From Limnanthes douglasii subsp. nivea (lineage: Eukaryota; Streptophyta; Magnoliopsida; Brassicales; Limnanthaceae): a stretch of 64,000 bases of DNA. The stretch covers positions 184,964,807 to 185,028,806 of the forward strand of contig JAUPFV010000004.1 in assembly GCA_036936605.1 (NCBI GenBank), read 5' to 3'. The notes below the pieces were generated by a model, which saw nothing but the letters and a program-made list of their open reading frames with translations, had not been told where the DNA came from and ran no database searches. The translations under genes were made by a program, and so were the position numbers. Below are positions 2,046 through 62,410 of this stretch, piece after piece (the stretch's first letter is position 1; each line of letters starts with the position of its first letter).

Positions 2046-2050
2046 GGAAC
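2046..2050. repeat. Target-site duplication GGAAC, left copy (Tat-B insertion)
   Basis: GGAAC directly left of the Tat-B LTR is repeated exactly at 10994-10998, directly right of the other LTR. A 5-bp duplication is the expected integrase signature for LTR elements. Confidence 0.93.
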
Positions 2051-2458
2051 TGGTGGTGATAATTATCGCCTCAGGGTAGGCTTGTAATTTGTTTGGTGTT
2101 TAATAGTAGTATGTGAGTGTTTTATTTTTAGTGTAGAGAGTAGAGAGATAATTAAGATGGCTGGTAGCAGTTAATTCTCATTACCCACCCTTAATGCAGG
2201 TGGTTGGGTATTTATACCCTCATGTTTGGGCCCTTATGGGCTTTCGGGTCATGTTAAATGGACCCGGGTCGTGTTCAAAGACCCATGAGCTCTAAGTAGG
2301 AGAGCAAGTAGCTTAGTCAAGTAGTGTTTAGGTTTTTTAGTACTTTTGTCATAGTTCGAACAGTCCTATGGTCTGAGTGTTCGAAGTGATCTGTCCGGTC
2401 CGGAGGCCTTGGACCGATCTGTCCTTGTCCGGGGAGCATGCTGAATTCGGACTCATCA
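2051..2458 (-). repeat. 3' LTR of Tat-B
   Basis: In element orientation it begins TGATGAGTCC and ends ATTATCACCACCA. It matches 10586-10993 over its full 408 bp with about seven substitutions and no indels that I could see. A TATA box (TATAAATA on the minus strand) lies at 2209-2216. Confidence 0.95.
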
Positions 2459-2475
2459 GGAGCCCCTTTTTTAGG
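2459..2475 (-). other. Polypurine tract of Tat-B
   Basis: On the minus strand TAAAAAAGGGGCTCC abuts the start of the 3' LTR. This is the purine run expected to prime plus-strand DNA synthesis. Confidence 0.8.
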
Positions 2476-2624
2476 TGTTTGTGCAAATACTCTTGTCAAA
2501 GACCTGAAAAACAGTCTGACATCAGGGTAGTTTTAATCCGGACAGGTCTGTCAATTTGGGCTATGGGTTTATCTAGACTGATAAAGCTTCACGAATTCAA
2601 AACGATTTTTGCCAGAGTTCATGG

Positions 2625-2803
2625 GACACGTGTCGCTCTCTGATTGGTTGCTTCACCCGTTTTTTCACCTTGAATTTCGAACCCACCTTCTTCGAAAAGC
2701 AACATCTTAATTAAAGGTGATGACATCAGCGCCGTCTTTAATCATTACCAATCTTTTCGAATTCTCCTAGGAATCAACTTATTTTTCATATTTACTATAA
2801 ATA
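2625..2803 (+). promoter_or_regulatory. Antisense promoter of Tat-B with G-box and TATA box
   Basis: The palindrome GACACGTGTC (a CACGTG G-box containing the ABRE-like ACGTGTC) lies at 2625-2634. A TATA box TATAAATA lies at 2796-2803, about 100 bp before the antisense ATG at 2903. The block between them (TCTTTAATCATTACC, CTCCTAGG) is recognisable in Tat-A (minus strand, 17765-17860) and Tat-F (48804-48976). Conservation across diverged copies argues for a real RNA polymerase II promoter facing against the element. Activity is inferred. Confidence 0.65.
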
Positions 2804-2902
2804 CAAATTCACTTTCTACTGTTTTACCATCTCTTTCACATTCACTCTGCAAAATTTCCCAAAGCTCTCTCTCTCTAAAGCAAAAACTTTGTTCGATAGT
2901 TT

Positions 2903-4738
2903 ATGTTTACAGCGAGGAACGCTCTGGTCAAAGGCGGGTGGCTCAACCTTTCTGAGTTAGAGAAGGCTCAAAAAGTCGAAAGAGAAAGACGAATTGCGGC
3001 AGGGTTACCCACTTCTCCTGTCGATAGACCAATCACCTCTGCCACAGAGTCAGATCAAGGCTCTTCTTCTTCTATAGGCACTAAGCCTAGAAAACTATTT
3101 CAAACCAACTTTTCCCCCATTATCTCTGGTTCCTCAGTTCAGGAATCGGAGCCTACTGTCGAGCCAAGAGTAACAGCTACTAGCCTAAAAAAACCTTCAC
3201 CCTTCATAGCAATGGGGTCGGATACGGAGCACTCCCCTGAGAAGCTAGTCGATAGGAGGAAAGGCCGGTTAGTTAGAGGCCAAGGGTCTAAAAACACTCC
3301 CTCAAAGTCGGGGGCAAAAGACAGCAGCACCGGGTCAGAGGTGCCTATTAGAGCCTCCAGGGATAGGTTGTCCGGTCCGGAGGGCACCAGTCCAAGTCTC
3401 CAAAGAGAAGCACCCACTCCGGATACTCTACCGGAGGCCAGAAGCCAAAAGAATACAGAGGCCCAGAAGTCTGGAGACAAGGCTGAGTCAAGTTTGAACC
3501 CTCCCCCCACTACAGCTGCTGAAATCCCTTCAACAATTATGGAGGAAGTGATGGAGGACTCTGTTGAAGAGGCTCCATTTGAGTCTGAGCCCTCCGGCCA
3601 CTACAGCTGCTGAAATCCCTTCAACAATTAGGATGCTCCAACAGACCCGGAGGGGCCAACCTAGAGCCAAATTGATGCTGCTCTCTTGGAAGTGGTGGAG
3701 CAAAAGACTGAAAAACAAGAAGCGAACCTCCCAAAACCTCCAAGGGCTTCCAAGAGAAATCGTAAACAGGGAAGCGAAGGCACAGACCGGGAGGCCAAGA
3801 AGAAGAAAACTTCTAAGGGAGACGAGCTTTCTCTCCGGGCTCCGGAGCCTTCTTTTCAAGCTGATCCTGCTGACCCAACGCATACCGAGGAGATTCCGGG
3901 TGACTTTCATACCGATGAGGTTGAGGGGGGAGATATCAACATCGATGGAGTAGACTTTTAGCACCTCCAACACGGTCACTTTTAATGGTAAGACTTTTAG
4001 CGTTTCTAGTGAAAGGGATCCCATAGCCCACTCTTTGTTAAGCAACGTTCAGCCTGTACTTGTGTTGGAGAAACAAGTCGAAACCAGGCCGATATCATCA
4101 AAGATCTCAAGTCTGACAAAGAGAGGCTGTCCGATGACCTTCGCACTGCCACTTCCAATGCTGACATTTTAAAGGAGGAAACTGAGGAGTTGAAGAGAAA
4201 GCAAGAGGCAAGCACCACAAAAGTCTCCACTTTAGAGGACACCATTAGAGAGCTCTGGGAGAAGCTGTCCGGTCTGGAGAAAGACCTTACCACCTCAAAG
4301 GGAGAATCCAAAGCTAAGGATCAAATCATCACCAACCTGACCAATGACAAAATCGCTCTTGAGAATACAGTGTCTAAGGCTGCCGCGGAGAAAGCGACTT
4401 TGCTAAAGGAGCAGGAGGCCAAGATTCAAGCCAAGATCGATGCTTATGCCAATAATGTGATCGACACTCAGGAGGAGATGTATGCCAAGGTGAAGTCTGA
4501 TATGGTCCTACTCTTCCATGAGAAGTTTCCGAAGAAGAACCTGGGGGATTTATGGCTTCATGTTGAGCCTGAAGACCTCTTGTATCATACGATGGCTGAA
4601 GGCGACAAGTATGGCTACTCTAGTGATTCCTCAGATGACGAAGAACACACCAGGGAGAAACCTGGCGAAGAGAAGAGTGATTTCAAAGGGAAGGAAAAGA
4701 CAGATGAAGGTGAGCCATCTTCTAAGGCTCAGCCTTAA
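2903..4738 (+). pseudogene. Tat-B antisense gene (central domain deleted)
   Basis: The plus-strand gene runs against gag-pol. The ATG at 2903 opens a 236-residue frame (FTARNALVKGGWLNL, then a disordered Ser/Pro/Lys stretch with PSPFIAMGSDTE). Pieces continue at 3686-3961 and 4190-4738. The C-terminal piece is a long coiled coil ending in a conserved tail (MVLLFHEKFPKK, then acidic residues). Homologues in Tat-A and Tat-F have a globular domain and an intron in the middle. Here both are missing: the N-terminal part jumps to the basic linker at a 32-bp direct repeat (copies near 3512 and 3599). In-frame stops lie at 3611, 3629, 3662 and 3959, and the frame shifts near 3955 and 4085. Antisense ORFs are known in Tat elements; their function is unknown. 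Confidence 0.8.
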
Positions 4739-5084
4739 TTCATGATTCAGTTTTTACTTAGTTATCCAAACTAAAGTCCTTGGAAGGCCAAGGCATTCGT
4801 TTTTGTAATCGTGTCCGGCAACTGACCGGATAGGTGCCAAGGCACTTTAAGTTATTTTAATGAATATATTTGTTTCATGCAATTCTCATCTTCTTTTATA
4901 GTCTGTTCCAATTTTGTTGGTTAGACTTTAAATAGCCTTTAGTTATTTCATAGTGAGAGTGTTTAAGTTCTCCGGCTAGAGTTTAAATAGCCCTTAGTTA
5001 TTTCAATCCGGATAGTGTGACAAAGGACAAAACTTAAAACACTTGGAAATTTTTTAAGAAGGCATCAAATTTTATTCAAAAGCC

Positions 5085-5150
5085 CGAACACCTCATTAAA
5101 ACCTCCCCGTGCCACCAGGGAGGAAAGAGTATGCCCCCAAATATTTACAT
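5085..5150 (-). promoter_or_regulatory. Conserved hairpin block downstream of Tat-B integrase
   Basis: In element orientation the order is CATACTCTTTCC, a perfect 6-bp stem CCTCCC/GGGAGG with a 10-nt loop, then GGTTTTAATGAGG. It sits just past the integrase stop, where the pol and antisense genes converge. The same block occurs in Tat-A, Tat-D and Tat-F, and a related one in Gy-1 and Gy-2. A role in RNA 3'-end formation or packaging is possible but not shown. Confidence 0.65.
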
Positions 5151-5191
5151 GGATGTTTAAACAAGTAAATATTTTACAAATGCTACTCCAA

Positions 5192-5671
5192 CTACATCCG
5201 GAGATGCTTGATATTCCAAGGATGAGTCAAAACTCTTCCATCTTTGTCCTCCAACCAATATGTCCCAGGTTTAATTCTTTCAACAACCATATACGGACCT
5301 TCCCAAGTTGGGGCTAGCTTTCCGAACAGATTTTCTTTAGTGTGTAAGAAGACTTTCCTTAATACTTTGTCCCCTGGTTGGAAATATCTTCTTTTAATTT
5401 TGGAAGCAAACCTGCTTCTCATCAAGCCCTGATAGTGTGCAACTCTAAGGTGAGCTTTAACTCGTCTTTCTTCTATCAAATCAAGTTGACCTCTGATTGC
5501 CACCTCGTTAGCATGTTCGGAGAAGTTGTGAACACGAAATGACGGGAGAGTTGCTTCTATGGGAGCTACTGCATCCATCCTATAGACCAAAGCAAAGGGT
5601 GACTCTTGTGTTGCAGCCCCACGTGTTGTCCGGTAGGCCCACAAGACTTCTTGTAAATAATTAGGCCACAA
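5192..5671 (-). pseudogene. Tat-B integrase C-terminal part
   Basis: The minus-strand frame starts just after the deletion that removed the integrase catalytic core (WPNYLQEVLWAYRTT). It continues through the typical Tat integrase C-terminus (KVFLHTKENLFGKLAP, WEGPYMVVERIKPGTYWL) and ends HPWNIKHLRM. The DDE core that joins element DNA to the target is absent between this piece and the zinc-finger part encoded just upstream. About 160 residues are there expected from related integrases. Confidence 0.88.
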
Positions 5672-7382
5672 TTATAGTTTTGCGTCCTCCGGACGCCACA
5701 GGGAGAGGCCCTACTGAATCCAACCCCCATCGATCAAAAGGAATAGGCTCAGAAATTGACTCTAAAGGAATGGCTGGGACATGAATTTCATTATTGTACC
5801 TCTGGCATGGGTCACACCTTCTTACCAATTCCTTCGCATCTTTCATGATAGATGGCCAATAGTAACCGGACAGTAAAACTCTTCTTGTTAAAGCTCTGAA
5901 TCCACAATGGGCTGATCCCTCACCATCATGCAATTCGTAGAGGACTACTTGAGATTCCTCATCCCCCAAACATCGCAGGAGAGGTTTACTGTAAGATTTT
6001 TTATACAACACTTCTCTCAATATGATGAAACCACGAGCCTTGTGTTTTAATGTTCTGGCTAGTGACTTATCTAGAGGCACGATACCATCGGAGAGATATT
6101 GCAGGAGAGGAAACCTCCAGTCTTGAGGTTGTTTCACTTGCACTTCAAAAATTTCCTCTTCTTTACCCTTACTAAGTTGAATGGAGGGGCTTTCCATCAC
6201 ATGGATCCATGGATATGACTCCGTATATGCTATGGTTGCTAATGAGTCTGCCAGCTCATTTTCTGCCCGGGGAATGTGCTCATAAACAACACCTTTAAAC
6301 TTGAGTGCTTCATTCTTAAGGAGGAGTAAATATTTCACAAGTTGCTCCTTTTTAGCCTCAGATTGGCCTTGGGCATGGTGGACCAGAAGCTGGGAATCAC
6401 TTAGTAGCTTGACCCTCTTAGCCCCACAAATGTAGGCTAACTTTAAACCAGCTATAGCTGCTTCGTATTCAGACTCATTATTGGATGCCCTAAAAGCAAA
6501 ACAAATAGCCTGGTACATTTTGTCTCCATATGGAGAAGTTAAACACACCCCAGTACCACATCCCATAGTGCTAGATCCACCATCCGTTCGGACGACCCAT
6601 ACCTTTTTATCTTTTATATCAGTAGTTTGCTCTGAATCCCTGTCGGAGTGGAATTCAACCAAGAAGTCAGCCACATCTTGGGCCTTGACTGTTGTTCGAG
6701 GAGCAAAGTCTATGTCGAAGTCCCCTAACTCTACTGACCACTTAGTCATCCTGCTTGAAATGTCTGCCTTTTGGAGGACATTCTTTAGGGGAAAAGAAGT
6801 CCGGACGATGTTGGGATGAGCCTGGAAATAAGGCCTCATCTTCCTGGCAGCTATCACCAAGGCTAATGCTAATTTTTCGAGTTTCAAGTAACGCCTTTCT
6901 GCATCTATCAAACTTTTGTTGATGTAGTACACTGGATGGGGATGACCATCTACCTCCCTTACCAATACAACACTGATGGCACAACTTGATACTGCCAAAT
7001 ATACGAAGAGTGTCTCCCCATCAACTGGCTTAAACAAAGTTTTGGGGGAGGACAGGTGGTTTTTGATCTCATTGAAAGCCTCATCACACCGTGGGGTCCA
7101 ATCAAACCCCTTTGCACCCTTCAAGGTTTGAAAGAAAGGGGCACACCTGTCCGAAGACCTTGAGATGAATCTGTTTAAGGCAGTTAATCTCCCCGTTAAC
7201 CGCTGTACTTCTTTAATATTTCGAGGAGGCTCCATTTGGAATAGAGCATTGAGCTTGTCCGGATCGGGCTGTATTCCATGCTCACTTATAATATAGCCTA
7301 GAAACTTCCCGGACTGCACTCCGAACACACATTTTTCTGGGTTTAATTTCAAATTCACTTTTACCAAGTTGGCAAAAGTTTC
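5661..7382 (-). pseudogene. Tat-B RT C-terminus, RNase H, archaeal-type RNase H and integrase N-terminus
   Basis: A 568-residue minus-strand frame in domain order: end of RT (VNLKLNPEKCVFGV, GKFLGYIISEHGI), first RNase H (SCAISVVLVRE, RYLKLEKLALALV), and a second archaeal-type RNase H (VVRTDGGSSTMGCGTG, NNESEYEAAIAGLKLA, SDSQLLVHHAQGQ). The integrase HHCC zinc region follows (DGEGSAHCGFRAL, CDPCQRY) and the frame ends in GGRKTIIVA. The double RNase H is diagnostic for Tat elements. The frame stops at a deletion junction with the C-terminal integrase piece at 5671, so the catalytic core is lost. Confidence 0.92.
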
Positions 7383-8171
7383 TTAGAGATCGGACAAGTG
7401 CAACTGCTCATCCACACTCTTCACCATCATGTCATCAATGTACACTTCCATATTTCTTCCAATCTGATCAGCGAAAGCTTTGTTCACTAATCTCTGATAA
7501 GTAGCCCCATCATTTTTCAGCCCAAACGGCATTACCTTATAGCAATGAAGACCTCTGTCAGTGACAAATGTGGTATGCTCTTGATCCTTCGGATCAACTT
7601 GAATCTGATTGAATCCGGAGAAGGCGTCCATAAAGGACAGCAGCTTGTTACCAGAGGTGGAATCTACTAACTGATCAATCCGGGGGACCGGATACAAATC
7701 TTTTGGGCAAGCCCTATTGAGATCTGTGAAGTCGATGCACATGCGCCACTTGCCATTTTTCTTCTTTACCAGAACCGGATTGGCAGTCCACAAAGGATAC
7801 TGAGAATCCTTGATGTTTCCCATCTTTGTGAGCCTGTCAACCTCTTGCACAATGACATCAGCCTTTTCCTTAGAAAAAGCTCTTCTCTTTTGAACCACTG
7901 GTGCTACGTCTCTCCGGACAGATAGGTGATGTGATATCACTTCTGCTGGGACCCCAGTAACATCAGCATTGCACCAAGCAAAAACGTGCTGATGATTCTT
8001 CAAAAACTTTAACATTTCATTTTTCAGATCGTGTGGCATTTTGGAGCCTATCTTAACACTTCTTCCTTCTTCCAAACAGTGTGTCTCTACCTCTTCGACC
8101 GGTATCAATACTCCAGGGGTCTCTCTGGGGTCATCAATTTCACCCTCACCCCTAGAAAGCCCCACAAACTG
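7383..8171 (-). pseudogene. Tat-B reverse transcriptase
   Basis: RT copies element RNA into DNA. The minus-strand frame continues directly past the protease/RT stop at 8172-8174 and includes a linker (DDPRETPGVLIPVEEVE), the RT fingers and palm (WRMCIDFTDLNRACPKD, SFMDAFSGFNQIQVDP, VMPFGLKN) and the catalytic YIDD box. It ends at a TAA (7383-7385) where Tat-F has glutamine and Tat-C has glutamate. Tat-A has a TAA at this same codon. Apart from that stop the RT looks full length. Confidence 0.92.
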
Positions 8172-8174
8172 TTA
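8172..8174 (-). other. In-frame stop (TAA) at protease/RT junction of Tat-B
   Basis: The protease frame ends in TAA followed by CAG TTT. RT carries on in the same frame without a start codon. Tat-A (TAG at 11754), Tat-F (TAG at 55276-55274) and Tat-C (TAG at 44342-44340) have a stop at the same alignment position. Confidence 0.8.
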
Positions 8175-8720
8175 TTGCTCGTTGGTGCGAACTGCCCCCA
8201 GTGTTCGGGGAGTCAGAGCAGTAGCATAACATTCCCTTGCAATCTTTTGACTGCTCCGGACGACTCCAACCTGTCCCTGAACAGCATATTTCAAGCAATG
8301 GTGGACTGTTGAAGCCACTGCATGCATTCTAGAGAGCCAAGACCTCCCTAGAATAGCATTATAGCAAGTGGGACAATCCACTACAATAAAGAGTATTCTG
8401 ACCATTTTCTTGAAAGGGCCCTTGCCCAATAGAACTTCCTCTTCGAACTCTCCGATCACATCTGCTGAGCTGCCTGTAAAGCCCACAATTGATCTGTCCG
8501 AACTCTGAATTACAGCTGGATTTTTCATTCTTTTGTATGTGGCTAGGAAAAGGATATTGGCTGAGCTTCCAGTATCCACCAAAATTCGTCTTATGTCGTT
8601 GCCCCCAATAGATGCTCCTATGATAACAGCATCCTAATGAGGACCAGCAATATCTCTTAAATCATCTTCATCAAAAACAATGAAGGGGAATGAATTTTGT
8701 AACTGATAGGAAGTCATGCC
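8175..8720 (-). pseudogene. Tat-B aspartic protease
   Basis: This retropepsin-type protease would cut the polyprotein. The active site reads LVDTGSSANILF. Downstream are FTGSSADVIGEFEEEVLLG and YNAILGRSWL, the second half of the fold. Upstream, the spacer between gag and protease has in-frame stops: TAG at about 8637 (the Tat-A copy has lysine) and TAA at about 8721 (Tat-A has glutamate). The protease core itself (8172-8582) is open. Confidence 0.9.
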
Positions 8721-10513
8721 TCCTTATAGCTGGGAGGCTAAAGTATGAACGTGCCTCTTCCTCGAAGAAGCAGTAGGAGCTGTCATAGTGTCCCCTCCGA
8801 AAATTGTAAGTGACTCAAAAAACTTAATGAGTCCGGAGACCGACCGAGAACATTCCTCAATTGTACACACTCTCTTTCGAGTTGGATCAGGATCCAAGTA
8901 CTCAGATTCCACATCAAACCTCTCAATTATAACCATGGCTCCCTCCGGAGCAGCATTACTTGGACCAACCCGGTGAGTGTTGTCAGACCTGTTACCTCCT
9001 CTTCTTTTGACGTAAGCTCCCAGTTTTCCCCTCTCAATCAAGTTCTGAACTTCCTGTTTCAATGCTATGCAGTCATCAGTGGTATGACAAATATCATTGT
9101 GATATTGGCAAAAAGAGTTATTGTGATGTTCTCTGGGAGACTGCAATGTGGCTGGTCTCCGATAATGCACCTCGTCCTTTGTTTTATCAAAAATGGTGGC
9201 CAAACTTTCTTTTAATTCTGCGAACCACTCCGGTTGGACCCATGGTCCTCTCTTGTTTCTGGATTGCTGACTCTGAGCAGGAGCAGCTGGCTGAGACTGA
9301 GCTTTTGTCCTACCATGCCCCTGTCCGGTTTCTCTTGGTTTGTTCCCGGACTGATTCTGATTGGGATTTGGTGCCACCGGGGTAGACCTCACTTACCTGT
9401 GCACCCTGGTTTTCTTCGTTTCATCAACATTAATTTGTTTTCCAACCTGATTCAGCAACCCTCCCCATGTCATTGCCTTCTTTCTGGTCACTGAGTCAGC
9501 CAAGTTGATAGGGTTCAAACCCTGTCTTAGGGATGCTATTGCTACATGTTCGAAGCAATCAGCCAACCCATTCTTGGTGTTCACAAAACGGCTTATATAT
9601 TCTTTCAAGGACTCGTTTGGTTCCTGGGCGCAATGGATTATTGTGTCTCCATTTCCCTTTAGCTCTTTACTCCCTACAAACTGCCTTCGAAAGGCTACCC
9701 AAAAAGTATCGAAATCTTTGATACAACCCTGAGGCAGGCTGTTGTACCATTTTAGAGCACTCCCCGTAAATGATTGGGAGAATGCCTTACAAAGTAGTTT
9801 ATCATCGTCGTCAAAGTTCATCATGAAGTTTTTAAATTGTTCCAAATGGTTGTCCGGATCAGTACTGCCATCGTACTTCTCTATTTTGGTACTGTCAAAC
9901 CTCTTAGGGAGGTTTCCGGACAGAATTTTAGAAGACAATGGAGATTGCCTCCAATTTCTTCCACGACTGAACACAGTATCCTCATTGGGAGTTGCAAAGA
10001 TACCTGGTTTATCGTGAAAAGCGAAGGGATCCACTAGCATCCGGTCCACATGCCTCCGGCTATGAGATGATCCTTTACCAATATGCCTCTTCATCTTTCC
10101 ATGTCTATCCATTTTTCTTGAATATTTTTTGATCTGCTTTTGCTTCTTTCTAGTTCGACCCTCATCGCTGCTAGAGGATAAAGATTTTTCAACCCCTCAC
10201 TGTCCGAAGAACTATTAGAAGATTCTGAGCTTGAGTCAGAACTCTCCACTGGCTTAGGCCGGTGAGACTTTTTGGAGCTGGCATGAGTCTTTTTGGTGCT
10301 CACATGAGTCTTTGAAGACTCATGCTCTTTGGGGTTGTCGGTGTGATGAGCAATTGATGCTTTAGACTTTTCTTTCATGCCCATCTTAGCCTTTTCGGCC
10401 CTCAGAGCTTCTATTTCACCCTTTAGCCTATCACGCTCTTAGATAGTGTACTCATCGTTCTCTCCCACCACTTCGAGCAGAGCTGGTGGTACTTCTGGAT
10501 TGTCCGAATTCAT
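8721..10513 (-). pseudogene. Tat-B gag (three breaks)
   Basis: The likely start is the ATG at 10513-10511, shortly after the primer site. Domains: N-terminal acidic and basic serine-rich region; gag core (ILSGNLPKRFDS, NHLEQFKNFMMNF, GSALKWYNSLPQG, AFRRQFVGSKE); Gln/Pro-rich basic linker; zinc-knuckle-like CQYHNDICHTTDDC; and a spacer to protease. Breaks: TAA at 10439-10441 (glutamate codon in Tat-A), a frameshift near 10190, and TAA at 9393-9395 (glutamine codon in Tat-A). Confidence 0.9.
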
Positions 10514-10563
10514 TCGGACAGACCTTCTTAGCTGGTTTTGAATGCTTGATTCAGGCACCTTCT

Positions 10564-10582
10564 CCTCCCACTGTGGTCGCCA
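10564..10582 (-). other. Primer-binding site of Tat-B
   Basis: On the minus strand TGGCGACCACAGTGGGAGG begins 3 nt past the 5' LTR end. It is nearly identical to the Tat-A site at 440. The matching tRNA was not determined. Confidence 0.7.
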
Positions 10583-10585
10583 ATT

Positions 10586-10993
10586 TGGTGGTGATAATTA
10601 TCGCCTGAGGGTAGGCTTGTAATTTGTTTGGTGTTTAATAGTAGTATGTGAGTGTTTTATTTTTAGTGTAGAGAGTAGAGAGATAATTAAGCTGGCTGGT
10701 AGCAGTTAATTCTCATTACCCACACTTAATGCAGGTGGTTGGGTATTTATACCCTCATGTTTGGGCCCTTATGGGCTTTCGGGTCATGTTAAATGGACCC
10801 GGGTCGTGTTCAAAGACCCATGAGCTCTAAGTAGGAGAGCAAGTAGCTTAGTCAAGTAGTGTTTAGGTTTTTTAGTACTTTTGTCATAGTTCGAATAGTC
10901 ATATGGTCTGAGTGTTCGAAGTGATTTGTCCGGTCCGGAGGCCTTGGACCGATCTGTCCTTGTCCGGGGAGCATGCAGAATTCGGACTCATCA
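10586..10993 (-). repeat. 5' LTR of Tat-B
   Basis: Full-length partner of 2051-2458, with TG...CA ends in element orientation and the GGAAC duplication directly outside. Confidence 0.95.
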
Positions 10994-10998
10994 GGAAC
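10994..10998. repeat. Target-site duplication GGAAC, right copy
   Basis: Exact repeat of 2046-2050. Tat-A gag resumes immediately after it. Confidence 0.93.
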
Positions 10999-11756
10999 AT
11001 CTGCTCAAGAAGGGGCAATGGTGATTCTTGAAAGATTTGATGTTGATTCGGAATAAGGTGGGGGTCAGAATAGAGCAAACCAGGACGGTGTCCGGACTAA
11101 TCAGTTTATTTGAGTCACTCAACATCTTTGGAAGAGATATTGTGACATCACCTACTCCTTCGTCAAGGAAGAGGCATGTGCATAGTTTGGCCACTCAGTT
11201 GGAAGGGGTAATGTCTTCTCATCAGTGCCAAATCCCTTTTAAATTCATATTTTCTGATGAGGATGACTTGAGAAATATTGATGGGCCTCATAAGGATGCG
11301 GTGGTGATAGGAGCATCTACTGGGGGCAATGATATTTGCCGGATTTTAATAGACACAGGTAGTTCGGCAAACCTCATTTTCTTAAGCTCCTACAAGCAAA
11401 TAAGGAATCCGGCTATTATTCAACACTCAAACAAAACCATTGTAGGCTTCACAGGGAGTTCTGCAGACGTAATTGGGGAATTTGAGGAAGAAGTACTGTT
11501 GGGCAAGGGGCCCTTTAAAAAGATGGTGAGGGTGCTATTTGTTGTGGTAAATTGCCCCACATCCTACAATGCGATTTTTGGGAGATCTTGCCTTTACAGA
11601 ATGCATGTTGTGGCCTCAACAGTCCATCAGTGTTTAAAGTATGCAATTGAAGGACAAGTAGGTGTTGTCCGAAGTAGTCAGAAGATAGCCAAGGAATGCT
11701 ATGCAATTGCTCTTGCTCCTAGAAGTTTGGGAGCAGTTCGGATTAATGAAGATTAG
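10999..11756 (+). pseudogene. Tat-A gag C-terminus and aspartic protease
   Basis: Continuation of the interrupted Tat-A polyprotein. After the end of gag (MVILERFDVDSE, with a frame break near 11055) a 242-residue frame runs to 11756. It has a spacer (SGLISLFESLNIFGRD), the protease active site LIDTGSSANLIF, FTGSSADVIGEFEEEV and YNAIFGRSCL. Protease is open here, unlike most Tat-A domains. The frame ends in NED followed by TAG. Confidence 0.9.
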
Positions 11757-11762
11757 CAGTTA
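11754..11762 (+). other. Candidate leaky stop TAG-CAG-TTA between protease and RT (Tat-A)
   Basis: TAG at 11754-11756 is followed by CAG TTA, an exact fit to the UAG-CAR-YYA readthrough context known from tobamovirus replicase genes. The RT-side reading continues in the same frame (QLLEPSEGEGEINDPREAP) with no ATG until the MAQELKK codon at 11889, well inside the conserved linker. Readthrough is an inference. Confidence 0.55.
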
Positions 11763-12520
11763 CTGGAGCCTTCTGAGGGAGAAGGTGAGATTAATGACCC
11801 CAGAGAGGCTCCTAGTGTTATAATATCGATTGAAGAGATTGAAACCCAATCCCTTGTAGAGGGTAAAAATATCAAGATTGGTTCCAAAATGGCGCAAGAG
11901 TTGAAAAAGAATTTGTTGTCTTTTTTACTAAAGAATCAACATGTTTTTGCTTGGTGCATTGGTGATGTAACCGGAGTGCCCGCAAGCATTATCTCACACA
12001 AGTTATCGATCCGGAGTGATGTTGCACCTGTTGTACAAAAAATGAGAGCTTTTTATAGTCCAAGAGGTTGATCGGCTTACCAAGATGGGACGCATAAAAG
12101 AATCCCAGTACCCTTTATGGACTGCCAATCCGGTGTTGGTCAAGAAAAAGAATGGGAAATGGCGTATGTGTATTGATTTCACCGACCTCAACAGAGCTTG
12201 CCCAAAAGATCTTTATCCAATCCCCCGGATAGGTCAGTTGGTAGACTCAACGTCTGGAAACAAGTTGTTGTCATTCATGGATGCCTTCTCTGGGTACAAC
12301 TAGATACATGTGGATCCGAAGGATCAAGATCATACTACCTTTATCCTAGACAGAGGTCTCCATTGCCATAAGGTGATGCCTTTTGGGTTAAAGAATGTTG
12401 GGGCTACTTCAAAATATTTGCTAGTCAGATTGGTAGAAATATGGAGGTATACATAGATGACATGATGGTTACAAGCTTGGAGGACGATTTGCATATAATT
12501 GATCTTTAAGAAACATTTGC
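11757..12520 (+). pseudogene. Tat-A reverse transcriptase, N-terminal and palm part (broken)
   Basis: Collinear with Tat-B RT: linker (INDPREAP), SKMAQELKKNLLSFLL, WRMCIDFTDLNRACPKD, SFMDAFSGYN, VMPFGLKN, and the YIDD catalytic box encoded at 12450-12461. Breaks include a short deletion and frame change near 12055, a stop at 12301, a deletion near 12408 and a TAA at about 12508. That last stop is at the same codon as the Tat-B stop at 7383. Confidence 0.88.
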
Positions 12521-25215: not shown

Positions 25216-26583
25216 TTTGGAGAACATCCTATAGAATCATGGGCATAAATGAAAGCCATTATGCGGAAGAGGTTTGTTCCTAGTCATTACCACCGTGAGC
25301 TGCATCTAAAGCTGAGGAGATTAACACAAGGAAGCCGATCTGTTGAAGAGTATTATCAAGAAATGGAGACCTTAATGTTGCGAGCTGATAATTCAGAAGA
25401 TAGAGAGGCAACAATGTCAAGGTTTCTTGGGGGTTTAAATAGAGAAATTTAAGACATATTGGAAACTCAGTATTATGTTGAACTAGAAGAGATGCTACAC
25501 AAAGCTTTTCTATTTGAACAACAAGTTAAAAGAAAGAACTCCTCAAGATCAAGTAACGGTTCAGGGGTAATAACAATTAAGCCAAGTTATTCAAAAGATG
25601 AGAAGACCAATTATCAGAAAGAAAGCTATGTAGAGGTGAACCAAACATCTGGAACACCATTGTCTATTGATAACAAGGGCAAACCTAAAGAATTTGCAAT
25701 CAAAACTCGTGATGTTAAGTGTTTCAAGTGCAAAGGGATGGGACATTATGCTAATGAGTGTTCTAATAAGAAGATTATGACAATTCTAGATAATGGAGAA
25801 ATAATTTCAGAGGAAGAAGAAATTGTGTCTGACTCTTCCGAAGAACACTTAGAGCGACCTGCTAAAGGAGATTTATTGGTAGCCAGAAGGTCTTTAAGCG
25901 TTCAAACAAAAGAAGAAGAACAAGAGCAAAGGGAGAATCTGTTTCACACTAGGTGTCTTGTTCAAGGGAAAGTTTGTAGCCTTATTATCGATGGAGGCAG
26001 TTGTACCAATGTGGCAAGTGAATCTATGGTAAAGAAGCTTGGTTTAAAAACGAAAAAGAATCCAGCACCTTACAAGCTTCAATGGCTTAATGACAATAGA
26101 GAAATGAAAGTTAGCCACCAAGTAGAAGTTCCCTTAGCCATTGGTAAGTACGAAGATGAAGTTTTATGTGATGTTCAACCAATGGAGGCTAGTCACATAC
26201 TGTTAGGAAGGCCATGGCAATCTGATCGAAAGGTTATCCATGATGGATTCACTAATCGCCATACATTTGAGTTTCAAGGAAGGAAAAACGCTCTAGTTCC
26301 CATAACTCCACGAGAAGTTTACCAAGATCAAAAGCATATGCAGAACAAGGAAAGTCGGGTAACTAAACATTCGAATTTCTATTTAAAATCTGGCGAGGTT
26401 AAGAAAGCATTATTCTCTAAGCAACCTATGTTACTTTTTGTGTTTAAGGAAACTCTTATGAGTTTAACTAACTTGACACCGGTGTTGCCGAGTGAGATGA
26501 CTTCTCTCTTACAGGAATTTGAAGATGTATTCCCTGAAGACAATCCGAAGGGGCTTCCACCAATTAGAGGCATCGAACACTAA
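25216..26583 (+). pseudogene. Gy-1 gag (C-terminal part) and protease
   Basis: Readable from MKAIMRKRFVPSHYHRELHL (end of the gag core) with a TAA at 25450 (CAA in Gy-2), then an open frame 25459-26583. This frame has a basic linker, zinc knuckle CFKCKGMGHYANEC, acidic spacer, and a protease-like domain with LIIDGGSCTNVAS and HILLGRPWQ. It ends at TAA 26581-26583, where related plant elements read straight on into RT. Gy-2 has the same TAA. Gag and protease roles are as in other Ty3/Gypsy elements. Confidence 0.85.
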
Positions 26584-26640
26584 ATAGATTTTGTACTTGG
26601 AGCCTCCCTTCCTAACAGACCTGCTTATAGAACTAATCCA

Positions 26641-27522
26641 GTGGAGACAAAAGAATTGCAAAGGCAAATCAGTGAACTGATGGAAAAAGGACATATCCGT
26701 GAAAGCACGAGTCCTTGTGCGGTACCAGTTCTACTTGTGCCCAAGAAAGATGGAAGCTGGAGAATGTGTGTTGATTGCAGAGCCATCAATCATTCTATGC
26801 ATTCTGCTTCTAAGTACTCTCCTTTTCAAATTGTTTATGGATTTAACCCAATATCTCCTTTGGATCTAATTCATTTGCCTTTGAGTGAAAGAATTATCAT
26901 AGATGGGAAAAAGAAAGGTGAACTTGTAAAACAGATCCATGATAATGCAAGGAAAAATATAGAAAATAAAACTGAACAATATGTCAAACAAGCAAACAAG
27001 GGAAGACGTGAGAAAGTTTTTGAGGTTGGAGATCAAGTATGGTTGCACTTAAGAATGGAAATATTTCTAGAAGAGAGGAAGTCAAAATTGATGCCTAGAA
27101 TTGATGGACCATTTGAAGTAACAAAAAAGATCAACAATAATGCGTATCAACTTGACCTACGAGGTAAGTATAAAGTGAGTCCTACCTTTAATGTTTCTGA
27201 TTTGGTTCCTTTTATCGCAGCTGAAATGGATTTGAGGTCAAATCCTTTTCAAGTGGGAGAGGATGATGTGATCCTAGATGACACAAGGAGCTTAGAACAT
27301 AGAAATGTGCAAGAACCAGATGAACAACTTGGAAAAGAAGATGAGCTTGAAGTTGAAGATATTCTTATTTTACCGGCTGGTCCAGCAACTCGATCAAGAG
27401 CAAAACAGTTTAACAAAGCTGTTGGAGGATTGCTTAATCAACTAGAGAATCCACGTGATCAAAACAGCAAGTATGGTGGAAAAGCTTGTCAAACCACTTT
27501 GGTCTTGATTCAAGCTAATTGA
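26641..27522 (+). pseudogene. Gy-1 chimeric pol: RT start fused in frame to integrase end
   Basis: The open frame has 293 residues. The first 50 or so are the start of RT ([38 protein letters not shown]). At about 26790 it jumps to the end of integrase ([43 protein letters not shown]) and ends [21 protein letters not shown] palm, RNase H and the integrase core are missing. Gy-2 continues normally at this point ([19 protein letters not shown]). The fusion is in frame by chance or after selection; I cannot tell. Confidence 0.85.
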
Positions 27523-27551
27523 TTTCAACAAATGAGAAAGTGTCTCGATTG

Positions 27552-27617
27552 TACTCTTTTTCCCTTGTTCAAGTTTTGTCCCAATGGGTTTTCTTGACAA
27601 GATTTTTAATGAGGCAA
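27552..27617 (+). promoter_or_regulatory. Conserved hairpin block of Gy-1
   Basis: CTCTTTTTCCCTTGTTCAAG, an inner CCCAATGGG, then CTTGACAAG and TTTTTAATGAGGCA. CTTGTTCAAG can pair with CTTGACAAG (about 9 bp with one bulge), enclosing the inner CCC/GGG pair. Same position relative to the pol stop as in the Tat elements. Confidence 0.6.
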
Positions 27618-27642
27618 TTGTTTCACTTCACCATTGCCCATA

Positions 27643-27969
27643 TGTTGAAATAAAAGCCCAAGGCCCATCTACACCAAAAGCCACGTCCTTGGAGGAGGGA
27701 AGGGTCTGATTTCCAGCTTATATCATTAATACTTTGTATTTTCAATATTAAAGCATTTTGTTTCCAAGAAAAGCCTTAATTATTTTAGAGGCATGCATTA
27801 TGTTTCCAAGAACAACCTTAATTGTGTTCAAGGCTAGTTCTTTCTCCTATAAAAACTATGTACTCAGAATTCTAATGGTTAGACTATCTTTGATTCTGAA
27901 AAAAAAAACTTCTTAAGTTTTACTCTTCTCTTGCTGGTGTGTAATATCCACAAGAAAACCTGTTCTTCA
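27643..27969 (+). repeat. LTR of Gy-1 (single)
   Basis: TGTTGAAATAAAAGCC to CCTGTTCTTCA, nearly identical to 61401-61723. Ends are inferred from TG...CA and from TTTGGTGCGTCAT, which follows as a possible primer site. A CTATAAAAACTATG box lies near 27845. No clear polypurine tract was seen before it. Confidence 0.6.
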
Positions 27970-28137
27970 TTTGGTGCGTCATATCCAAAGGAAGATCAGT
28001 TGGAATATCAAAGGCCTTTCCACAACCTTTGTGTGACCTATAGATCCACATCCTTTGATCCTTGAATCCTTTTGGGTTCCTGGTTGTAAAGTTATCCCTA
28101 TCCCATTTCAGAGTGCCGATTCTAGGAGGAGTTTATA
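27970..28137 (+). other. Gy leader placed downstream of the Gy-1 LTR
   Basis: Matches the Gy-2 leader (61724-61889) closely, including TTTGGTGCGTCAT and CGATTCTAGGAGGAGTTTAT, after which Gy-1 and Gy-2 diverge abruptly. In a normally inserted element the LTR would be followed by target DNA here. Confidence 0.75.
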
Positions 28138-35863: not shown

Positions 35864-36543
35864 AGTCTTTCTTTTTGTACAATTGTGATGATTTTTTATT
35901 CAATTCCTACCACCCGTGAATTTAAGCAATATATTATAAAACGTTATAAAACTTTAAAATTTTATTCAAATATAACTCCGTTCCAATTAATGATTTGTTC
36001 ATCGGTTTTTCTTTTAAATAGTTGGAAGCATAGAATATTAGAATATGAGTTTTGTTAAACTTTATTTAGTTGTTGATGATAGTATTAGGTCGGTTTTAGG
36101 AGTTCAATGATATATTCCTAGTTGTTAGGATTTGGGTGTTAGAATTTGTCTGAACTAGAGTTTAAAGTATAGAATATGAATATTTTCCAAGTATAAGGTT
36201 TGAAAATAGGGAAATATACTTGATTATTTTTCAAGTTGAATTTTTCATTTCCCAATTATCTTGTGTTAGTATTTTTTATTTATGGTATTAGTATTTTGCA
36301 TTTGTATTGTGAATATATTTCGTATTTTCCAGTCATGTGGCGGTTGCATTTTATATCTCGCAGTTACGTAGTCCATGTATTAATCCGCATTTCACATTGT
36401 TGAATTATCAATAACATGTGTTTAATATTTCATAAATTCTACATAAAACATGGCCACTATTGTATTTTTTTTCAGATCATGCATATATACCTCAATCAAA
36501 ACCATGAAGTCAAAAAATTAAAAAAAAACATTTTTGGAAGCAA
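35864..36543 (+). repeat. Large direct duplication, copy 1
   Basis: Starts AGTCTTTCTTTTTGTACAAT; homologous along its length to 36661-37540. Shared landmarks are GTTCCAATTAATGATTTGTT, GGAAATATACTTG and CAGATCATGCATATA. Lacks about 210 bp present in copy 2. AT-rich, no coding frame, identity unknown. Confidence 0.8.
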
Positions 36544-36660
36544 TTAAAATAAACGTTTTGCATATTATCTTCAAGAGAATATTTGGCTTGAGGAATGATA
36601 AAAGTGCTACCAAGAAACATTAAGACTTGATTGTAACACTAATAAAGACATGTTACAAAC

Positions 36661-37540
36661 AGTCTTTTTTTACAATTGTGATAATTTTTTATTCGATTTC
36701 TACCACCAAAGAGTGATTTAAGCAATATATTCTAAAACGTTATAAAACCTTAAAATTTTATTCAAATATAACTCTGTTCCAATTAATGATTTATTCATCG
36801 GGTTTTCTTTAAAATAGTTGGAAGCATATAATATGAGTATTGTAAAACTTTATTTAGTTGTTGATGATAGTATTATGTCGGTTTTAGGAGTTCAATGATA
36901 TTTTCCTAATTCTTAGGATTTGGGTGTTAGAATTTGTTTGAACTAGAGTTTGAAAGTATGGAATATGAATATTTTCCAAGTAGAAGGTTTGAAAATAGGG
37001 AAATATACTTGTTTTATATTATTTTTCAAGTTGAATTTTGATTACTTGGCCAGTGTTTGAAAATAGATAAATATAAGTTTTGTTTTGTATTTTCGAATTT
37101 GGCTGTAAGCCTTGTTTCACAATTCAGTTTAAGCATGATTCGTATTTCACATCTCATGTTTGTCTTAATGTATGTATTTTTCATTTCACATTTCGTTGTT
37201 ACATTTTGAATGTATTTTGCATTTTGCAATTATGTGGTGTTAGTATTTTCCATTTCCTAATTATCTGGTGTTAGCATTTTTTATTTATGGTATTAGTATT
37301 TTGTATTTGTATTCTGAATATATTTCGTATTTTCCAGTCATGTTGCAGTTGCATTTTACATTTCACATAGTGCATGTATTAATCCGCGTTTCACATTATT
37401 CGATTATCAATAACATGTATTTAGTATTTCATAAATTCTATATCAAAACATGGCCACCATTGTATTTTTTCAGATCATGCATATACACCTCAATCAAAAC
37501 CATGAAGTCAAGAAATTTAAAAAACACTTTTGGAAGCAAG
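36661..37540 (+). repeat. Large direct duplication, copy 2
   Basis: Second copy of the unit, separated from copy 1 by 117 bp. It has an extra segment (about 37030-37250) made of degenerate TTTCACATTTCGTATT-like repeats. Unit length including the spacer is about 797 bp. Neither LTR hallmarks nor inverted ends were found. Confidence 0.8.
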
Positions 37541-43310: not shown

Positions 43311-44339
43311 CAACTTCAAAGTTTTGATAAAATCTCGGGTGATAATAACAAGTTTTTATGCTTGTAAATGCTGCCTCACACTCCGATGTTCATTCAAATC
43401 TTTTGGTCATCGTAAAACTTGAAAGAAAGGAAAGCATTTGTGAGATAATCTGGAAATAAATCGGTTAGGTGAAAACAGATCAAGGCGAATTCAATGCTAT
43501 TAGAGCTTTCAATTGTTCTGGGTAAACTTCTATTCTTGTTTCACTGATAACATAACCCAAGAACTTCCCTGATCGAACTCTGAAGGTGCACTTTTCAGGA
43601 TTTAGCTTTAACCTGATTACCGTTAAATTCAAAAATGTTTCCTCTAAATCCTCAAGATGCACATCATCCATCAAAAAGTTTACCACCATATCGTTTATAT
43701 ACACCTATATATTTCTTCTGATTTTTGATAAATGACTCCAGTGTTTTTCAATCCAAAGGGCATAACCTTATAGCAATGTAACCCTCTATCAATTATGAAG
43801 GTCGTACACTCTTGGTCCCTTGGATCCATATGAATCTCATTGTGTCCTGCAAAAGCATTCATGAATGTTAGTATTTTATTTCCCGAGGTGGAATCAATCA
43901 GTTGATATTCAAGGAACATGAAATGGATCTTTAGGACAGGCTCGATTCCATCCACAAAGGATATTGTGACTCCCTTATGTGTCCGACCTTGGATAACCGA
44001 TCCACCTCTAGAAAAATTTGCTTCTGTCTTTTCCGAAGAGAAGGCCCTTCTTTTCTGAATCACTGGTTTTACCTTTGGATCAATAGCCAAACTGTGACGA
44101 ATCACCTCGATTGGTACTCTTGTCACATCCTCTGTTTTCCAAGCGAACACGTCCAAGTTAAACGATAAAAATTCTAGCAGTTGTTGACGTAAGAGTGGGG
44201 TCAGTAAGGTTCCGATTTGAAGCACTCTTCCTTCCAAAAAACTATACTCCTCTATTTCTTCACCTACTATTAAAGACTCTGGGGTTTCCCTCGGATCGTC
44301 AACTCTTTCTTTAAAATCTGAGGTCAACCCCTCTGACTG
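43311..44339 (-). pseudogene. Tat-C reverse transcriptase
   Basis: Linker VDDPRETPESLIVGEEIEEY, RT start (LSFNLDVFAWKTEDVTRVP), a shortened fingers region, STSGNKILTFMNAFAGHNEI, VMPFGLKNTG, and then the catalytic box, which reads YINDM instead of YIDDM. That change of a metal-binding aspartate would kill activity. RT C-terminus NPEKCTFRVRSGKFLGYV follows. Confidence 0.85.
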
Positions 44340-44342
44340 CTA
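44340..44342 (-). other. TAG stop at protease/RT junction of Tat-C, TAG-CAG-TCA
   Basis: Minus strand TAG at 44342-44340, followed by CAG TCA, fitting CAR-YYA. RT reads on in the same frame (QSEGLTSDFKERVDDPRE). The stop aligns with the stops of Tat-A, -B and -F although this family is diverged. Confidence 0.55.
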
Positions 44343-54480: not shown

Positions 54481-55273
54481 TATTTCAATAAAATCCTGGT
54501 CACAGTGTGGAGACCAATTGAAGTCTTTAGCATTTCTCAGTACTTGGAAGAATGGAGCGCACTTGGCTGATGATCTTGAGATAAACCTATTCAACGCATC
54601 CAATCGTCCTGTCAGCCTTTGAACTTCTTTAATATTCGATGAGGATCCATTGCTAGTAAAGCATTAAGTTGATTCAGATCATGTTGAATTCTCTTTTCAC
54701 TTATAATGTAGCCTAAGAATTTTTCAGATCGGACCTCAAATACACACTTCTCATGCTTCAATTTTAAATTCACAACTTCTAAATTGGAAGATGTCTCTTG
54801 AAGGTCAGATATATGTGAATCTTCCTCCAAGATTTTAACCATCATATCATCTATGTAAACTTCCATGCGTCTGGCAATCTGATTAGCAAAAGTTTTATTC
54901 ACCAACCTTTGATAAGTGGCCCCATCTTGGTTAAACAGTCAACTTCTTGGACAATCACATCTGTTTTTTCCTTAGAAAAGAACTTCATCTTCTGTACAAC
55001 TGGTGCAATATCACTCTGTATTTACAATTTATGAGCGATAATATCTGCTGGTGCCCCAGTAACATCATTGTTGCACCATGAAAATATATGTTGATTATTC
55101 ATTAAAAAGGATAATAACTGGTGCTTCAATTCTGGTGCCAGCTTGGAACCAATCTTAACAGTCTTGCCCTCTACAAGGGAGTGATTTTCAACTTCCTCAA
55201 TCGGTATTATAACACTGGGAGCCTCCCTAGGATCATAAATTTCATTTTCCTTAGTAGAAGGCTCCAATAGCAG
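54481..55273 (-). pseudogene. Tat-F reverse transcriptase with palm deletion
   Basis: Begins in frame after the TAG (LLLEPSTKENEIYDPREAP), LAPELKHQLLSFLMNNQHIF. At about 54925 the fingers/palm region jumps from VIVQEVDCLTKMG to ATYQRLVNKTFANQI, removing roughly 110-130 residues including the first catalytic aspartate. Both edges carry a GATGGGG-like stretch, suggesting a microhomology deletion. The YIDD box remains (MEVYIDDMMVK). Confidence 0.86.
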
Positions 55274-55276
55274 CTA
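55274..55276 (-). other. TAG stop at protease/RT junction of Tat-F
   Basis: TAG followed by CTG CTA TTG GAG. The flanking text (NKD before, LLLEPS after) aligns residue by residue with Tat-A (NED before, QLLEPS after). The CAR triplet is changed to CTG here. Confidence 0.55.
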
Positions 55277-60941: not shown

Positions 60942-61022
60942 GTTATTTCCTTCATGCTTTGGTAAACAATTGATTGTGTAATTTTCTCCATTAAAAATAC
61001 ACATTTTCCCTTATTGTATATG

Positions 61023-61280
61023 ATGTGATCCTAGATGACACAAGGAGCTTAGAACATGGAAATGTGCAAGAACCAAATGAACAACTTGAAAAAAGAAGAT
61101 GAGCTTGAAGTTGAAGATATTCTTATTTTACCGGCTGGTCCAACAACTCGATCAAGAGCAAAACAATTTAACAAAGCTGTTGGAGGATTGCTTAATCAAC
61201 TAGAGAATCCACGTGATCAAAACAGCAAGTATGGTGGAAAAGCTTGTCAAACCACTTTGGTCTTGATTCAAGCTAATTGA
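61023..61280 (+). pseudogene. Gy-2 upstream unit: C-terminal end of pol
   Basis: Matches the Gy-1 pol end ([40 protein letters not shown]) to the stop at 61278-61280, with an extra A causing a frameshift near 61090. Everything upstream of the last 80 or so residues is missing. Confidence 0.83.
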
Positions 61281-61309
61281 TTTCAACAAAAGAGAAAGTG
61301 TCTCGATTG

Positions 61310-61375
61310 TACTCTTTTTCCCTTGTTCAAGTTTTGTCCCAATGGGTTTTCTTGACAAGGTTTTTAATGAGGCAA
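61310..61375 (+). promoter_or_regulatory. Conserved hairpin block of Gy-2
   Basis: Same block as Gy-1: CTCTTTTTCCCTTGTTCAAG, CCCAATGGG, CTTGACAAGG, TTTTTAATGAGGCA. Confidence 0.6.
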
Positions 61376-61400
61376 GTGTTTCACTTCACCATTGTCCATT

Positions 61401-61723
61401 TGTTGAAATAAAAGCCCAAGGCCCATCTACACCAAAAGCCACGTCCTTGGAGGAGGGAAGGGTCTGATTTCCAGCTTATATAATTAATACTTTGTATTTT
61501 CAATATTAAGGCATTTTGTTTCCAAGAAAAGCCTTAATTGTTTTAGAGGCATGCATTATGTTTCCAAGAACAGCCTTAATTGTGTTCAAGGCTAGTTCTT
61601 TCTCCTATAAAAACTATGTACTCAGAATTTTAATGGTTAGACTATCTTTGATTCTGAAAAAACTTCTAAAGTTTTACTCTTCTCTTGTTGGTGTGTAATA
61701 TCCACAAGAAAACCTGTTCTTCA
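61401..61723 (+). repeat. LTR shared by the two Gy-2 units
   Basis: TGTTGAAATAAAAGCC to CCTGTTCTTCA; a few differences from 27643-27969. CCTATAAAAACTATG near 61604 is a likely TATA region. Followed by TTTGGTGCGTCAT. Confidence 0.6.
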
Positions 61724-61934
61724 TTTGGTGCGTCATATCCAAAGGAAGATCAATTGGAATATCAAAGGACTTTCCACAACCTTTGTGTGACCTATCGATC
61801 CACATCCTTTGATCCTTGAATCCTTTTGGGTTCCTGGTTGCAAAGTTATCCCTATCCCATTTCAGAGTGCCGATTCTAGGAGGAGTTTATCATTTGGACT
61901 ACCTGAACAATTCAGAAATGAAGCCGCTGAACAC

Positions 61935-62410
61935 ATGAGCAATTCGTCTCGAAACAGCCATAGAAGGCACCATAGACGTACAAGAGAGGGAAACGAACGT
62001 ATGCGTGACAATCTTGGAGGTCTCAAGATTAAGATTCCACCATTCCATGGAAAAAACGATCCAGATGCCTATTTGGAATGGGAAAAGAAGATTGAACTCG
62101 TTTTCAACGTTCAACACTACACTGAGACCAATCGAGTAAGAATTGCTGCTACTGAATTTTATGATTATGCTCTTAGTTGGTGGGATCAACTAGTTACCTC
62201 AAGAAGGCGTAATGGGGAACATCCTATAAAATCATGGGCAGAAATGAAAGCCATTATACGGAAGAGGTTTGTTCCTAGACATTACCACCGTGAGCTGCAT
62301 CTAAAGCTGAGGAGATTAACACAAGGAAGCCTATCAAGAAATGGAGACCTTAATGTTGCGAGCTGATATTTCAGAAGATAGAGAGGCAACAATGTCAAGG
62401 TTTCTTGGTA
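61935..62410 (+). pseudogene. Gy-2 gag, N-terminal and core part
   Basis: First good ATG at 61935 (MSNSSRNSHRRHHRRTREGN). Gag core: LGGLKIKIPPFHGKNDPDAY, LEWEKKIELVFNVQHYTETN, YALSWWDQLVTSRRRNGEHP, MKAIIRKRFVPRHYHRELHL. A 17-bp deletion near 62328, relative to Gy-1, shifts the frame; the next frame starts at 62341 (METLMLRADISEDREATMSR). Confidence 0.85.

Follow-up and report, generated by a model that had tools for sequence, protein, structure and literature searches.

Suppression of a stop codon between two frames of a plant LTR-retrotransposon has a precedent in SIRE1, reportedly described by Havecker and Voytas in 2003, and recoding of gag and pol is said to have been surveyed by Gao in 2003. 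The SIRE1 stop is a UAG in a CARYYA context, and in gammaretroviruses the stop comes after gag, not protease. SIRE1 is a soybean Ty1/copia element (Sirevirus) in which, as stated in passages of PMC2829016 and PMC2194720, a suppressed stop separates the pol frame from the Env-like frame. The type I readthrough signal consists of a UAG followed by CAR-YYA, and UAA and UGA can be stimulated too; passages of the same source describe type II signals as typically having a stem-loop some 8 nt 3' of the stop codon and mention, as the authors' unpublished data, a compact stem-loop at the benyvirus coat-protein type I site (PMC3542737). The residue reported to be inserted at UAG in the TMV context is tyrosine (PMC2754532). 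In recently active Retand elements, according to passages of a recent survey, gag and pol occupy one ORF in 37 of 63 clusters and two ORFs in 26, the one-ORF share being 29% for monocots (termed "Liliaceae" there) and 83% for eudicots (Vicient 2025, PMC11963269).

Here we describe an in-frame stop at the protease/reverse transcriptase (Pro/RT) junction of four related Tat copies, A, B, C, and F, in a 64,000-nt stretch of Limnanthes douglasii subsp. nivea DNA, the whole of which is referred to below as the window. Judged from the sequence, a plant Tat LTR-retrotransposon lineage very probably uses the junction for programmed readthrough of the stop codon. A sequence-only reading had placed the nonamers TAG CAG TTA at 11754 (+) in copy A and, on the minus strand, TAG CAG TCA at 44342 in C, TAG CTG CTA at 55276 in F, and TAA CAG TTT at 8174 in B, and all four were recovered exactly. 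In copy A, the last part of the Gag-Pro frame (11025 to 11756, +; 243 aa open, Pfam RVP) is terminated by the junction UAG (11754 to 11756, +), which lies between protease and RT and is common to all four copies; CAG TTA (11757 to 11762, +) follows, and the linker and the start of RT (11757 to 12053, +) continue in the frame of the stop and are frame-shifted further on. The equivalent stops are a UAA in B (8172 to 8174, −) and UAGs in C (44340 to 44342, −) and F (55274 to 55276, −). That RT stands in the stop's own frame directly 3' of the junction held for each copy, and so did the equal position of the stop: 17 residues separate the CY of the protease motif from it in A, B, and C, the copy F protease being frame-shifted and therefore outside this count. 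The DPRE linker begins 13 codons after the stop in A, B, and F and 14 codons after it in C, which has one extra codon after the stop; an unconstrained MAFFT alignment displaced the junction of C by one codon. A tblastn search of the window with protease and RT pieces (E ≤ 1e-3) found no fifth Tat Pro/RT junction, and the stop is present at four of the four junctions.

Copy B (window positions 2046 to 10998) is nested in copy A in the opposite orientation. It is a young insertion: its 5' LTR (10586 to 10993, −) differs from its 3' LTR (2051 to 2458, −) by 7 mismatches over 408 nt (98.3% identity), and a 5-bp target duplication, GGAAC, is found at 2046 to 2050 and 10994 to 10998. The domain order of B is gag, protease, RT, RNase H, a second RNase H-like domain, and the integrase zinc finger. 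Its protease part (8175 to 8633, −) gave Pfam matches under the curated cutoff, and Pfam also placed the linker and RT (RVT_1) at 7383 to 8171 (−) and RNase H, the second RNase H-like domain (RVT_3), and the integrase zinc-binding domain at 5664 to 7382 (−); in the product of the last region, RNase H spans 124 to 222, RVT_3 293 to 383, and Integrase_H2C2 476 to 531. Angiosperm Tat (Ogre/Retand) elements are marked, according to passages of Neumann 2019 (PMC6317226), by an additional RNase H of archaeal type that follows the first RNase H and precedes integrase, and B carries this mark if RVT_3 is taken as such. The RT search returned 7721 matches, with 120 listed at 50 to 61% identity in a comparison that contained no reference Tat RT; the organisms named among these listed matches are plants, except for one MAG label. 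An Ogre-type intron-like gap (average, 274 bp) between Pro and RT is absent from the copies, the frame resuming right after the stop. We file the lineage as Tat and, on account of its short LTR and lack of an intron, as Retand-like, a label that stops short of Retand membership itself. Between pol and the 3' LTR, copy B contains antisense ORFs at 2900 to 3613 and 4013 to 4738 (+), as Retand elements do. An antisense TRP28 ORF in this position is listed for 97% of Retand clusters in one source (Vicient 2025, PMC11963269) and TRP28 for 23% of Retand elements in another (Neumann 2019, PMC6317226), which makes it, from the passages concerned, common and not strictly defining; no TRP28 match was found in the four antisense ORFs scanned, that at 2900 to 3613 (+) of B included, in copies that are decayed. 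Elsewhere in the window, another gypsy element is present in two copies (25218 to 28136 and 61020 to 63769; 95 to 97%) with gag, protease, and RT; this pair was judged by eye not to be Tat and is probably a chromovirus. Direct repeats that are 88 to 93% identical lie at 35870 to 37539 with a spacing of about 0.8 to 1.0 kb.

All four copies contain further stops or frameshifts. Along 951 codons of the B frame, from protease to integrase, the in-frame stops number 6 in A, 4 in B, 10 in C, and 8 in F, with the junction counted. The junction alone is stopped in all four copies, and no codon is stopped in three. In a decay model run for 200,000 trials over these codons, with stops weighted by codon proneness, any codon was stopped in all four copies by chance in 0.0185% of trials (P = 0.000185). 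The other stops had been described as mostly private, which is right for 16 of the 24, while the remaining 8 fall in four codons that are each common to two copies. The model expects on average 0.79 codons stopped in at least two copies, and the four seen besides the junction exceed this number, indicating mutation-prone stop sites beyond those modeled; stop cells are also enriched at CAA, CAG, CGA, and TGG codons (12/344 versus 9/1667 and 3/1561). This enrichment and the four two-copy codons are what could be expected if the junction stop had arisen by recurrent decay at a mutation-prone codon, for example if a methylated CAG had mutated to TAG in every one of the dead copies, but the sharing by four of four copies retains its low probability even with proneness weighting, and we consider such an origin highly improbable. 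One of the two-copy stops is a TAA common to A (12507 to 12509, +) and B (7383 to 7385, −) just past the RT catalytic region; the corresponding codon is CAA in F and GAG in C. Because A and F are closest in the RT tree and B lies outside them, this TAA is probably a homoplasy or was lost in F.

We next consider selection on the frame, using Nei-Gojobori counts of codons without a gap or stop. Past the stop, dN/dS is 0.07 between A and B (690 codons; dS, 2.2) and 0.10 between A and F (569 codons; dS, 1.6). The other four pairs have pS values of 0.80 to 0.83, at which dS is saturated and not computable, and pN values of 0.18 to 0.34, and pN is far below pS in all six copy pairs. Constraint is weaker over the 22-codon linker that follows the stop than over RT, with dN/dS values, in the four pairs for which they could be computed, of 0.47 for A-B, 0.18 for A-F, 0.31 for B-F, and 0.64 for C-F. 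Purifying selection has acted on both sides of the stop. Since it is strong at near-saturated synonymous divergence, the lineages behind A, B, C, and F would long have produced working RT, RNase H, and integrase. As the stop is common to all four and the frame 3' of it is selected, the most economical view is that stop-bearing lineages probably made their RT by translation across the stop. A defective subfamily, in which the stop is an inherited nonsense mutation and RT and integrase are supplied in trans, could account for the further lesions in all four copies and for the second TAA that A and B share in RT. It is difficult to reconcile with dN/dS values of 0.07 to 0.10 past the stop between old lineages whose synonymous sites are near saturation, or with the occurrence of the same ORF end in other families described below, and we regard it as decidedly unlikely.

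The protease ORFs of other Tat families also tend to end here. One of the seven protease-search matches, P0121, led to 229 relatives, of which the 120 listed were analyzed as proteins only. The ARxCY position was reached by 87 of these 120 (P0199 among them, in a shifted frame), and the last residue after ARxCY was at +22 in 57, +19 in 6, +17 in 3, +18 in 2 (P0121 being one of the two), +21 in 1, and elsewhere in 18. When the 87 proteins were grouped at 70% identity, the commonest end was within +17 to +22 in 8 of 11 groups (+22 in five; +21, +19, and +17 once each); of the other three groups, two, those of P0234 and P0239, are one ORF reading on. The independence of these ends is limited, 35 of the 57 at +22 belonging to a single 70% group; the +19 and +17 groups and distant +22 members (57 to 65% identical to P0121) are more independent. 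Named hosts include alder, Alnus glutinosa (P0198 and P0232, both +22), and hazel, Corylus avellana (P0231), in which the junction is different.

In four relatives (P0129, P0139, P0214, and P0226), the stop is lost and the frame is continuous, with K, L, E, and Y at the stop position. Codons for each of these residues are one base from TAG or TAA, and Q is found in none, a further argument against recurrent decay of a CAG codon. The lost stop is followed by Q-S in three cases and L-S in one and then by the linker as it stands at the start of RT proteins such as P0009 and P0015; copy C (TAG CAG TCA) has the same Q-S version as the three stop-lost relatives. A blind scan of other frames for a stop plus linker yielded mostly noise and was replaced by an analysis of the C-terminal tails of 15 proteins, 7 of which cover the junction in another frame (P0156, P0160, P0173, P0195, P0199, P0206, and P0213). 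These seven tails imply a TAG in six and a TAA in one, and in all seven the next six bases are compatible with CARYYA and the sixth base is A. A full CARYYA match occurs in one-sixth to one-half of the possible readings per tail, with other hexanucleotides allowed too, and the tails are support and not an unbiased count, since positions were chosen for compatibility with a stop and linker. Queries of IMG/VR with the RT, the protease, and an alignment of RTs returned no relatives; the phage collection gave no match, the plasmid collection gave three distant matches only, and the genome contig collection gave one plant-like contig (L001) and six distant elements in MAG contigs. L001 (1 to 4661), filed under Streptomyces clavifer and probably a plant-like contaminant, has one ORF across Pro and RT with, by eye, a G-patch-like stretch between them.

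Intact relatives with a sense codon at the junction had been named in advance as evidence against readthrough. Such relatives exist across families: among the 120 listed of 7721 RT matches, the Pro end runs into RT without a break in the frame in at least 46, as counted by a pattern that missed some (e.g., P0060). Six of the 120 begin at the linker just past the stop, and 68 are unclassified. Because at least 46 of the listed relatives are one ORF, readthrough would not be needed by Tat elements in general, and the stop appears to be a property of some Tat families, not all. The RT tree, in which 49 of 128 rows were kept, unites A, B, C, and F at 96/95, with A and F closest (99/80 from rows that are 33 to 42% filled) and B outside. 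When stop-bearing and one-ORF rows are compared, parsimony needs two changes, and well-supported branches force one. The tree, whose backbone is open, accommodates both a single old origin of the stop with losses and two gains.

The context of the stop had been described as matching the tobamovirus UAG-CAR-YYA signal exactly in two of the four copies, and this is the case: A and C (CAG TCA; 44334 to 44339, −) score 6/6, and B (CAG TTT; 8166 to 8171, −) and F (CTG CTA; 55268 to 55273, −) score 5/6. At 24 other in-frame stops, a score of 6/6 is seen in none and 5/6 in 2; at 608 other stop triplets in any frame, the corresponding numbers are 1 and 12. Both in-frame stops scoring 5/6 are one homologous codon, at 13545 in A (TAG) and 53797 in F (TAA), which is followed by an ordinary Q-L pair, and near matches can thus arise from coding sequence. 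The type II signal, UGA followed by CGG or CUA, is not what the copies carry; they have UAG or UAA followed by CAG or CTG. Against readthrough, B and F are one base off CARYYA and B has a UAA.

In addition to the hexanucleotide, a hairpin is predicted in each copy. Its core in copy A occupies nt 9 to 56 past the stop (11765 to 11812, +; −20.4 kcal/mol), and the hairpins of B (8116 to 8163, −; −23.6 kcal/mol), C (44281 to 44331, −; −20.8 kcal/mol), and F (55218 to 55265, −; −19.9 kcal/mol) start 8 nt past it. Folds of the 120 nt past the stop have nucleotide 9 as the first base of the stem in B, C, and F; the stem of A reaches back to nt 5 in longer folds and leaves a spacer of 4 nt. The z-scores of the 120-nt folds were −2.35 for A, −1.53 for B, −3.36 for C, and −1.58 for F. 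In a sliding consensus fold from protease to integrase, the place of the hairpin ranked second of 824 windows, with three overlapping hairpin windows tied and one upstream window ahead. The named structure pairs 91.1% of 56 cells, compared with 37.5 to 60.7% when partners were slid by 1 to 3 columns, and both sides have changed in 4 of 14 hairpin pairs. The paired percentage was matched by 10 of 500 shuffles and the covariation score by 10 of 500; neither double-changed pairs (equaled or exceeded in 80 of 500 shuffles) nor further pair types (455 of 500) were enriched. Against 3,000 samples in which amino acids were kept and synonymous codons were varied (nt 9 to 56; 9 to 59 in C), the hairpin energy gave a P of 0.023 for A and about 0.001 for B, C, and F, in a test that is a little loose because 8% of 48 background stretches of B reach a P of ≤0.05. 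All of these hairpin statistics come from four related copies, with borders picked after folding. Taken as predictions, they suggest a hairpin just 3' of the stop that goes beyond coding constraint. The predicted stem begins at nt 9 in B, C, and F, which agrees with a type II stem-loop around 8 nt 3' of the stop, and at nt 5 in A. The site thus looks like a type I (tobamovirus-like) hexanucleotide combined with a predicted stem-loop positioned as in type II.

The Pro/RT border could also be crossed by splicing. In Ogre elements, the Gag-Pro and RT-RH-INT ORFs are 274 bp apart on average and the intron between them is spliced from a subset of transcripts, as given in passages of PMC6317226; an analogous loss of a small in-frame intron containing the stop from some transcripts would join Pro to RT here. 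In A, B, and C, the AG that immediately follows the stop is indeed in frame with an upstream GT (93 or 96 nt). However, across the aligned columns spanning 360 nt 5' and 420 nt 3' of the stop, the four copies have no in-frame GT-AG pair of at least 60 nt in common, and the four pairs found in three copies have weak-looking donors. There is no additional noncoding stretch, the linker being immediate and in frame; stop-lost copies of other families read straight on; and splicing leaves the CAR-YYA and the hairpin unexplained. We hold it to be very unlikely. Termination followed by reinitiation, or internal entry at a separate RT ORF, might be proposed from the in-frame ATG 45 codons past the stop in A and B. 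In F, the first ATG is at codon 58, and C has no in-frame ATG over the 140 codons examined; moreover, the linker ahead of any ATG is kept in frame, and this route to RT seems extremely improbable.

Programmed readthrough is favored by the sharing of the stop, the selection 3' of it, the recurrent ORF end in other families, DNA there that is compatible with stop-CAR-YYA, and the predicted hairpin, and by these comparisons the suggestion that it operates at this junction is well supported. Translation would mostly end at the UAG, or at the UAA of B, with release of Gag-Pro. The remaining ribosomes, a minority, would decode the stop, helped by CAR-YYA and the stem-loop starting about 8 nt on, and would proceed in frame through the linker, RT, RNase H, and integrase to yield a minor Gag-Pro-Pol product. 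What we infer is the ribosomal readthrough itself, the role of the hexanucleotide and hairpin in it, and the ratio of Gag-Pro to Pol; readthrough would probably set the amount of replication enzyme. It is conceivable, though doubtful, that angiosperm Tat elements ancestrally controlled Pol with a composite cassette of type I CAR-YYA and a stem-loop about 8 nt downstream. Many families would have retained this cassette, one-ORF families would have dropped it, and Ogre would have substituted an intron; the signal would be either convergent with or common to that of plant RNA viruses.

Were the readthrough reading true, plant transposons of a large class would also carry a viral recoding signal, and would do so at the border for which Ogre relies on splicing. 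The likeness to Ogre lies in control of expression at the Pro/RT border; Ogre has a partly spliced intron, whereas none is common to the four copies here. The type I sites of tobamoviruses, benyviruses, and pomoviruses, described in passages of PMC3542737, have a UAG (also UAA) followed by CAR-YYA, which the junction matches in full in A and C and at 5 of 6 bases in B and F; those sites serve a replicase or coat protein, whereas this one lies between Gag-Pro and RT of a retrotransposon. The gammaretrovirus gag/pol UAG resembles it as an in-frame stop with an 8-nt spacer and a 3' RNA structure but, in the passages concerned, belongs to a type III context with a pseudoknot (PMC3542737, PMC2194720). 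Closer to Tat, candidate readthrough genes among rice gypsy elements are named in passages that cite the RIRE2 paper (PMC2754532), and RIRE2 is assigned to Retand in Neumann 2019 (PMC6317226); it is thus a readthrough candidate from the same Tat group, and the RIRE2 paper (1999) may already describe a stop at the Pro/RT border. For the 26 of 63 two-ORF Retand clusters, the passages of Vicient 2025 (PMC11963269) name no stop context or recoding mechanism, and in the literature searched, mostly outside subscription journals, no mechanism for making RT and integrase in two-ORF Retand elements was stated, apart from the readthrough candidacy of RIRE2, and no CAR-YYA site or hairpin was found described at a Tat Pro/RT border. 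Elements with this stop should not be annotated as broken on account of it. The nearest precedent is SIRE1, with RIRE2 a candidate precedent as well. SIRE1 is likewise a plant LTR-retrotransposon with an in-frame stop between two frames and stop-codon suppression, but it is a copia element with the stop before an Env-like ORF, whereas the present site lies at the Pro/RT border of a Ty3/gypsy Tat element with a predicted hairpin just 3' of it. Stop suppression in LTR-retrotransposons is thus known, and what the four copies appear to add is its Tat Pro/RT context and the hairpin.
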